Of a stretch of DNA of 64,000 bases, positions 28,686-30,593 are shown piece after piece. Location of the stretch: contig NZ_CM001368.1 of the NCBI RefSeq assembly GCF_000177215.2, positions 3,355,625 to 3,419,624 on the forward strand, written 5' to 3'. The stretch's first letter is position 1, and each line of letters opens with the position of its first letter. This DNA comes from Solidesulfovibrio carbinoliphilus subsp. oakridgensis. GTDB lineage: Bacteria > Desulfobacterota > Desulfovibrionia > Desulfovibrionales > Desulfovibrionaceae. A program made the translations under genes and the position numbers. Under the pieces are notes generated by a model. The model was not told where the DNA came from. It saw nothing but the letters and a program-made list of their open reading frames with translations, and did no database searches.

Positions 28686-29018
28686 TCAGTGCGTGCCGCA
28701 GGAGCCGCCGCAATTGCCGCCGGCCAGGGAGAAATCGAGGCTCGACCGGATGACGAACCCTTCCTCGCCGCAGTCGACCACCAGGGGGGCCGCCTGCTGC
28801 AACAGGGCGCGGTTGACCACGAACCGCCAGCCCCGGGCCGAAAAGGCGGCATCGTCGCCAGTCGGTTCGTCCGCGGCCAGTTCCAGGCGCGGGCCGCTGT
28901 CGCTCAGAAACGACAGGAAGACGCGCAGGCTCGGCCGGCCGGAAGGGGTGAAAAGGGCGGACAGGGCGATGTCCGCCGCCTCGGTCAGGCTGAAAAGATC
29001 GTTTTCCCGGATGTCCAT
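28686..29018 (-). CDS. HesB/IscA-like protein lacking the first cysteine
   Basis: The 110-residue product aligns along its length with the two genes upstream. Where those have GG-Cys or GG-Sec followed by GP, this one reads FLSDSGPRLEL, so the key thiol/selenol is Asp. The C-terminal cysteine group remains (GGNCGGSCGTH). An ATG at 29018 is chosen; the TTG two codons earlier has no better site. It is the third and most divergent copy of a tandem family. Loss of the first ligand suggests it no longer carries an Fe-S cluster in the usual way and may be a partner of the other two. Confidence 0.65.
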   Translation of the reverse strand: MDIRENDLFSLTEAADIALSALFTPSGRPSLRVFLSFLSDSGPRLELAADEPTGDDAAFSARGWRFVVNRALLQQAAPLVVDCGEEGFVIRSSLDFSLAGGNCGGSCGTH

Positions 29019-29128: not shown

Positions 29129-29473
29129 TCAGGAGGAGCAGCCGCCGCCGCAACCACCGCCGCCACCGCTGCCACACGAACCGCCGCCGCAGGAACCGCC
29201 GCCTTCAAGCTTCAGATTCGAGCTCACGGCAAAGCCGTAGTCGGTCATGTCCACGGTGATGGGGCTCGCCAAGGCCAACAGCTCCTTTTCCACCACGACG
29301 GTATAGCCGTTGACGTCAAAAACGTCGTCGTTGTCGCGGGCTTCGTCCAGGGCCAGGGTCAGGGAGGGGCCGCAGCAGCCGCCCTTGTTCAGATACACCC
29401 GGATAGGGGCCTTGTCTTTATCGGCAAAATAGTTGTCGAGTTCGGCTCGCGCCGTGTCTGTCAATGAAACCAT
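29129..29473 (-). CDS. HesB/IscA-like protein, cysteine form
   Basis: The 114-residue product starts MVSLTDTAR at an ATG with GGAGG 8 nt before it. It has the HesB-like fold with YLNKGGCCGPSLTLAL; C33 is the conserved first ligand, and the tail is a Gly/Cys-rich string (GGSCGGGSCGSGGGG) that could bind iron or a cluster. It is the cysteine homologue of the selenocysteine gene just upstream, with about two thirds of positions alike by eye. The family (HesB-related, TIGR01911) is thought to act in Fe-S cluster handling. The exact partner is unknown. Confidence 0.8.
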   Translation of the reverse strand: MVSLTDTARAELDNYFADKDKAPIRVYLNKGGCCGPSLTLALDEARDNDDVFDVNGYTVVVEKELLALASPITVDMTDYGFAVSSNLKLEGGGSCGGGSCGSGGGGGCGGGCSS

Positions 29474-29593
29474 GCGAACCTCCAAACGAGAGATGTCAAA
29501 GGGGTAATCACCGGGGTTTGGATTGTCAAATAAGCCTCGTCTATGGATGCGGGGCCAAACTTCCGGTGATTCCCGATGCGATCTCCCGGGAGA

Positions 29594-29917
29594 TCAGCTG
29601 GTCGAACAGGAACCGCCGGAACACGAGGAGCCGCAACTGCTGCCGCCACCGAGTTCCAGGCTCGAAGTGACCGAAAATCCCATGTAGGTCATGTCGACCT
29701 TGAGGGGCGAGGCCTTCTCAAGCAGGTCTTTTTCTATGACAAACGTGTAGCCGGAAACATCGAGCACCGCATCCGTATCGCGCGACTCATCCAGAGCCAG
29801 CGCCAGCCTGGGGCCAGCTCAGCCGCCGGACGAGAGATAAATCCGGATGGGCGTCTTTTCCTTGTCCGCGAAATACCCATCCAGTTGGGTCTTGGCGCTT
29901 TCCGTCAATTCAACCAT
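29594..29917 (-). CDS. HesB-like selenoprotein (in-frame UGA at codon 33)
   Basis: Read from the ATG at 29917 (GGAGG upstream), 32 codons lead to an in-frame TGA at 29821-29819 and 74 further sense codons follow to the true stop TGA at 29594. The context IYLSSGG-UGA-AGPRLALALDES aligns exactly with the cysteine form IYL/VYLNKGG-C-CGPSL in the next gene, so UGA replaces the conserved cysteine. Similarity continues at full strength after the UGA up to a Cys-rich tail (SSCGSSCSGGSCSTS). The HesB-related family TIGR01911 is known to include selenoproteins with Sec at this position. The product would be 107 residues. Automated calling would miss this gene or cut it at codon 33. Confidence 0.85.
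29794..29820 (-). promoter_or_regulatory. Possible bacterial SECIS hairpin
   Basis: From the G of the UGA, GAGCUGG can pair with CUGGCUC (two G:U pairs) around a 13-nt loop that contains AGG. A hairpin directly 3' of the UGA is what SelB needs, but in this G/C-rich coding sequence other folds are possible. Confidence 0.4.
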
Positions 29918-30050
29918 GGTATCCTCCGCAATCAAGCTCTTTCGATGCAACTAAGCATGACCGATCGGAAAGTCAAATGGGTTCCTCCCGGGGCGACGCA
30001 GCGTTGCGCCGCCCGGGCATCTGCGGTATCTGCCGGAAAAGCCTGGGGGA

Positions 30051-30593
30051 ATGCGCGTGACAAAATCGAAAAAACTGATGACCGCCGGCGAAGTGCGGCG
30101 CACCCTGGACCGGCTGGCCTTCGAGATCATCGAACGCCACGATCCGGCCTGCGGCCTGGCCCTGGTCGGCATCCAGCGGCGGGGGGCGGAACTGGCCGCC
30201 CGCCTCAAAGCCCTGCTCGACGCCCGGGGCGGCTGCGACGTGCCGCTCGGCAAGCTCGACATCAACCTGTACCGCGACGATTGGACCAACCGGGACGTGC
30301 AGCCCCAGGTCGGGCCGTCGGACATCCCGTTTCCGCTGGCCGGCAAGAACGTGGTCCTGATCGACGACGTCCTCTTCTCGGGCCGCACCATCCGGGCCGC
30401 CCTCGAAGCCCTGCTCGACTACGGCCGCCCCAACCGGGTGGAACTGCTTGTCCTGATCGACCGCCGGGGCCACCGGGAACTGCCCATCCAGGCCGACTAT
30501 TTCGGCAAACGCGTCCACACCGCCCAGGGCGAACACGTGGACGTGGCCGTGGCCGAACTCGACGGCGAAGACGGCGTGCTGCTGGTCGGCTAG
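30051..30593 (+). CDS. pyrR: PyrR: pyr regulator / uracil phosphoribosyltransferase
   Basis: The 180-residue PRTase-fold protein has the PRPP-binding motif VVLIDDVLFSGRTIRAAL (about 99-116) and the PyrR words LVGIQRRGAELA and LDINLYRDD. In other bacteria PyrR binds pyr mRNA to control attenuation and has weak uracil phosphoribosyltransferase activity. No pyr biosynthesis gene is adjacent here, so regulation would be in trans. The ATG at 30051 lies about 14 nt after GGGG-type purines. Confidence 0.92.
   Translation: MRVTKSKKLMTAGEVRRTLDRLAFEIIERHDPACGLALVGIQRRGAELAARLKALLDARGGCDVPLGKLDINLYRDDWTNRDVQPQVGPSDIPFPLAGKNVVLIDDVLFSGRTIRAALEALLDYGRPNRVELLVLIDRRGHRELPIQADYFGKRVHTAQGEHVDVAVAELDGEDGVLLVG

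Follow-up and report, generated by a model that had tools for sequence, protein, structure and literature searches.

HesB-like proteins constitute one of 25 bacterial selenoprotein families (PMC1794560), and their selenocysteine (Sec)-containing forms were already listed for Desulfovibrio in 2006-2007 (PMC1794560, PMC1914089). D. vulgaris and D. desulfuricans are each entered with a HesB-like selenoprotein in Table 3 of that first survey (PMC1794560), while DVU_1382 is given as a HesB family gene with a TGA (PMC1914089). A 2026 review files the HesB-like selenoproteins in a table under TIGR01911 with the motif UxGP, and supplies a RefSeq query that retrieves HesB-like proteins containing selenocysteine (PMC13188914). 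In M. maripaludis, mutagenesis and 75Se labelling led to the HesB-like selenoprotein, whose function is described as not clear (PMC11097638). The bacterial SECIS element is a hairpin 3' of the UGA within the gene, with a small apical loop bearing a conserved G (PMC1088965).

The gene and its protein family

The window (the whole stretch of 64,000 nucleotides analysed here) contains a predicted gene of this kind followed by two tandem paralogues (Table 1). The first-pass annotation had described an in-frame TGA at codon 33 of an otherwise complete gene without stating its strand; the interruption is indeed present, and the gene lies on the minus strand, starting with the ATG at 29917-29915. With the TGA read as U, positions 29917 to 29594 translate as MVELTES...SSGGUAGPRL...GGGSSCGSSCSGGSCSTS, followed by a stop. 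Residues 33-36 (UAGP) fit the motif UxGP and place Sec at the UxGP/CxGP site that characterizes NF038090, and the tail holds C95, C99 and C104, while the protein encoded in the window contains neither a CxxU nor a UxxC motif. Read on the plus strand, 29594-29917 yields no useful protein, just a low-complexity frame of poor quality. As had been claimed, the adjacent paralogue has Cys at the Sec site (GGCCGP vs GGUAGP), and the similarity continues through the Cys-rich C-terminus, the Sec protein and its Cys paralogue being 63% identical.

Table 1. Positions of the hesB-like genes and associated elements in the window
Feature	Position	Strand	Basis
hesB-like gene, predicted selenoprotein	29594..29917	minus	107 residues, Sec codon 33; NF038090 121 bits vs cut-off 85
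UGA codon 33, predicted to be read as selenocysteine	29819..29821	minus	aligned with Cys of paralogue and of IscA-type proteins
ribosome-binding site GGAGG	29923..29927	minus	sequence; five bases upstream of ATG
terminal UGA, real stop	29594..29596	minus	TAG after same STS ending in L052, L053
putative SECIS hairpin	29780..29803	minus	fold, codon constraint, consensus fold, upper-stem pair counts
tandem paralogue, Cys at Sec site	29129..29473	minus	NF038090 113.1 bits
third tandem paralogue, Asp at Sec/Cys site	28686..29018	minus	NF038090 60.1 bits, below cut-off 85

A profile search from 134 sources returned 239 matches (198 distinct), from which 177 homologue rows were kept and 21 dropped as incomplete. 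The aligned site is UGA in 111 rows, Cys in 54 and something else in 12, proportions that are not frequencies because the homologue stretches were fetched mostly for their TGA matches, enriching the UGA rows. ATG is the start codon of all 111 UGA rows and each has 3-5 Cys beyond residue 80; 110 of them carry GGAG, AGGA or GAGG within 22 bases upstream of the start. Residues 1-80 are free of Cys in 90 of the 111, the window protein included, and Sec is therefore the only such residue of its folded part. The first stop after the Sec site is TAG in 40 of these rows, TAA in 39 and TGA in 32. A second Sec at the terminal UGA of the window gene was considered and ruled out, since two relatives (L052 and L053) end at that point with TAG after the same STS; the terminal UGA is thus a true stop. 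This stop codon is overlapped by a perfect 16-base palindrome at 29580-29595 (GATCTCCCGGGAGATC) that lacks a T run; of the genus rows listed, L122 and L123 show a partial resemblance.

The protein had been assigned to TIGR01911 (HesB_rel_seleno), a placement that did not hold: against this related profile, with which it shares the UxGP motif, it scores only 30 bits where the curated cut-off is 66.35, whereas it passes NF038090 (IscA_HesB_Se, NCBIfam) with 121 bits over a curated cut-off of 85. It resembles the NF038090 members of Desulfovibrio and relatives in its Sec at the UxGP site, its Cys-rich tail and its score over the cut-off, and differs from them in nothing essential, the window gene standing in a tandem of three paralogues. 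PF01521 is just missed (25.6 vs 26.3) and is just passed by the Cys paralogue (27.2), while the IscA, SufA and ErpA models TIGR02011, TIGR01997 and NF010147 give 21.5, 17.9 and 21.2 bits, far below their cut-offs of 150.6, 136.2 and 117. Scored directly against TIGR00049, the Sec protein reaches 31.8 bits. The remark that standard annotation would show the gene as truncated or miss it altogether probably no longer holds, because NCBI models the family and a RefSeq query exists for HesB-like Sec proteins.

The hairpin downstream of the UGA

The putative SECIS hairpin reads GCGC-U-GGCUC-UGGAU-GAGUC-GCGC, comprising a lower stem (GCGC/GCGC), a bulged U at 29799, an upper stem (GGCUC/GAGUC) and the loop UGGAU, and its conserved position is about 16-39 nt after the UGA. 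The bulged U and the loop G presumably resemble those of the fdhF SECIS of E. coli. The hairpin shares with described bacterial SECIS elements its location 3' of the UGA inside the gene and its small apical loop with a conserved G; unlike them, it matched no Rfam family when the window and the gene were searched with cmscan, although Rfam may hold no bacterial SECIS model. A search with RF00031 gave no match in the window's own genome and none in the control genomes either, and is for that reason uninformative.

Codon choice points to a SECIS. At +8 to +11 past the site both UGA and Cys genes encode mostly A-L-D-E, but GCTCTGGAYGAG is used for these residues in 108/108 UGA genes and in 2/40 Cys genes (Fisher p 2.5e-33, relatedness ignored). 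The Ala codon is GCT in all 109 UGA genes with Ala at this point vs 7 of 52 Cys genes, a choice that runs against the GC-rich trend elsewhere (third-position GC 0.66 and 0.76). When the set was thinned to 65 sequences, 62 kept the element; among the exceptions (L145, L148 and L151), L148 and L151 have a C-G to U-A change in one hairpin pair. The consensus fold is a single hairpin at columns 23-39 whose pairs are formed in 90.5% of cells, while slid versions reach 14.3-50.5%. Changes on both sides of a pair were counted 4 times, in 3 pairs; this covariation is modest, so the silent-site argument is the stronger one. As judged from these alignments, the SECIS hairpin is under selection at silent sites.

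In the window, the 31 bases at 29775-29805 fold at z -2.85 (5/200 shuffles as good), the 52 bases from the UGA (29770-29821) at z -0.45 (62/200 as good) and 48 bases of the Cys paralogue at z 0.76, the three stretches differing in length and so not being strict controls of one another. The earlier proposal placed a possible SECIS directly after the UGA. A hairpin does fold there in the 52 bases, but the element that is conserved and under codon constraint is farther downstream, at 29803-29780. As the consensus retains only columns 23-39, the hairpin directly after the UGA was rejected as the SECIS.

Cys at the site combined with the hairpin was found in 2/149 genomes of the taxonomic family. 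Five of the 54 Cys rows (L052, L053, L112, L022 and L065) carry GCTCTGGA in the SECIS region; possible origins are remnants of a SECIS or gene conversion from a Sec copy. For Desulfitobacterium, a published figure legend describes a HesB-like gene that encodes Cys and retains a SECIS remnant (PMC1794560).

Conservation of the UGA and the selenocysteine machinery

In the sample of 149 family genomes, the signature searched (UGA-x-G-P, then TGGCTCTGGAYGAG in register) occurs in 115, and in 105 of the 121 good ones; the exact signature is missing from 34, of which 16 are among the good ones. It is present in all 9 sampled genomes of the genus, once in each. The reversed pattern gave no match in the 149 family genomes, nor did the signature shifted by one base. 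NF038090 itself matches 139 of the 149 at E 0.001, 136 of them over the cut-off, with three matches in each of the 9 genus genomes of this sample, the window's own included; in a phylum sample of 297 genomes it matches 156 at 1e-12, with 125 over the cut-off. Two UGA-plus-SECIS signatures occur together in each of two genomes (G016 and G024), where two Sec copies may exist, and one NF038090 match (G365:C66:233-529) has two in-frame TGA codons.

Sec and Cys seem to have been interchanged repeatedly at this site, because a tree of 169 rows in which the site itself was masked implies at least 20 changes among three states, albeit one built by a quick method from only 91 columns with 73 of 166 inner branches open. 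The starred branches of this tree force 8 changes for U and 9 for C.

The first-pass annotation had held that the selenoprotein reading would fall if selA, selB, selC and selD were absent. All four were found in the window's own genome (4.22 Mb, 3 contigs), and this objection fails. The tRNA-Sec (selC) scores 82.7 bits and is named tRNA-SeC with anticodon tca (UCA) by ARAGORN; of 8 weaker matches, the 3 tested are Ser, Ser and Trp tRNAs. SelA (613.5 bits vs a cut-off of 267.9), SelB (358.2 vs 242.25) and SelD (331.2 vs 125) all pass, SelD with one in-frame TGA. The selD reading frame (L018 1501-2421) runs AAGUAAK across that TGA. Other SelD proteins are known to have such a codon too, and SelD stands in the published selenoprotein lists (PMC1794560).

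The machinery, the conserved UGA and the SECIS together support the original selenoprotein call, and on this sequence evidence 29917-29594 very probably encodes a genuine selenoprotein, a grading that concerns selenoprotein identity alone and not the role. By established biology, SelB and the Sec-tRNA would read the hairpin, inserting Sec instead of terminating. The DNA alone is also compatible with the UGA being a true stop that yields a 32-residue peptide, or being read through as Cys or Trp without selenium, but this is very improbable: the 111 UGA rows all preserve protein-coding sequence beyond the UGA, with 3-5 tail Cys in each, the Sec machinery is present in the genome, UGA genes, unlike Cys genes, are invariant in their hairpin codons, and the HesB-like selenoprotein of M. 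maripaludis was itself found through mutagenesis and 75Se labelling (PMC11097638). A pseudogene, or a sequencing error in which TGC or TGT was read as TGA in the window's own assembly only, could point to the TGC at the aligned position of the paralogue, but has a negligible chance of being correct in view of the silent-site constraint, the intact tail and ribosome-binding site and the recurrence of UGA and hairpin in 115/149 family genomes, and the error raised earlier as a refutation is untenable because the same UGA stands in 9/9 sampled genus genomes.

Fold, paralogues and candidate role

An AlphaFold model built on a 67-row alignment, with Cys written for Sec at 33, has a mean pLDDT of 79.6, residues 91-104 of the tail falling under 50. 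The best Foldseek matches to it are IscA with [2Fe-2S] (1x0g) and E. coli IscA (1r94, 1s98), and further matches include 2d2a, SufA, and DsrR of a sulfur oxidiser (2k4z). A profile of the 67 proteins finds six PDB sequences, including AQ_1857, HI1723, E. coli IscA, IscA 1x0g and SufA. In its predicted structure the Sec protein is therefore IscA-like (A-type) in fold. Three profile alignments, with AQ_1857, HI1723 and E. coli IscA, set Sec33 against the first conserved cysteine (GGC/SGC), which we take to be a metal ligand position. A-type carriers have three conserved Cys ligands, including a C-G/S-C pair in the tail. The window protein shares with the IscA, SufA and ErpA carriers the fold and the position of the first conserved cysteine, but has Sec in place of that Cys and C95, C99 and C104 in place of the pair, these tail cysteines being spaced otherwise and lying in a part of the model with low confidence.

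Given the fold, the ligand position and the tail, we give roughly even credence to the product being an A-type iron-sulfur or iron carrier, in which Sec33 would be a ligand replacing the first conserved cysteine of IscA and the mobile Cys-rich tail would supply the remaining ligands. The selenolate would adjust how the metal is bound or passed on, or its redox state, and the tandem Cys copy would either act as a selenium-independent equivalent or have a client of its own. The general A-type model TIGR00049 is passed in 0/10 genomes of the genus (7 of them good) vs 8/14 control genomes, so the A-type carriers of the genus may come from the hesB cluster. The only TIGR00049 match in the window's own genome is the Cys paralogue, below the cut-off, the Sec copy being missed by that search, and a PF01521 search of this genome gave no first-look candidate although the Cys paralogue scores 27.2 directly. 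Divergent A-type proteins could accordingly be missed, as both searches overlooked copies that score when tested directly. Against a carrier role, the neighbours tested (PyrR, a response regulator, an HD-type protein and a nuclease-like protein) give no Fe-S hint and the tail cysteines depart from the classic pair. An unpublished remark that nitrogen fixation was unimpaired in an M. maripaludis mutant disrupted in the HesB-like gene also counts against it (PMC11097638).

The neighbouring pyrR (30051-30593, plus strand) recurs within 4 kb of a UGA hesB gene in 14 of 15 loci, the contig of the 15th locus being only 4,156 bases long. We know of no link between pyrR and hesB.

The third paralogue has SDSGP at the Sec/Cys site, and its start codon is uncertain. 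It is perhaps an A-type-like protein without the first ligand, comparable with DsrR, which presumably lacks the cysteines. Asp, Glu or Ala occupies the site in 12 homologue rows; 11 of these entered the tree, where they group as a single clade (SH-aLRT 100), and each of the 11 whose end can be read has exactly two Cys beyond residue 80.

A possible but unlikely alternative to the carrier is a selenoprotein with a thiol-selenol redox role, in which Sec33 would form a selenenylsulfide with the tail cysteines and no metal would be carried. Sec does lie beside a flexible, Cys-rich tail (pLDDT under 50; 3-5 Cys), yet the fold is that of IscA and not thioredoxin-like, Sec occupies the presumed metal-ligand position and the window protein has no CxxU or UxxC motif. 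A redox role is deemed likely in the 2026 review for the majority of uncharacterised selenoproteins (PMC13188914). Less credible still is a sensor or buffer for selenium, sulfur or a toxic metal that would stand outside Fe-S assembly. The tested neighbours, none of them Fe-S genes, and the fold shared with DsrR (2k4z) would suit such a protein; direct support for it was not found, however, and the wide spread in the phylum (125/297 genomes over the cut-off) fits a basic role better.

Returning to the A-type carrier, its most far-reaching version, to which we assign a low probability, would make the Sec, Cys and neither-residue trio the whole A-type carrier set of these sulfate-reducing bacteria, with the iron-sulfur cluster of the Sec copy bound via a genetically encoded selenolate. 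The Cys copy would be its partner, either free of selenium or specific to a client, and the third copy a partner or a regulator. The window gene is an ordinary added member of a family known from Desulfovibrio for close to twenty years. A genus with adjacent Sec and Cys copies, and with no general A-type carrier over the cut-off in any of 10 genomes, would be a workable place to ask about the role of these proteins.
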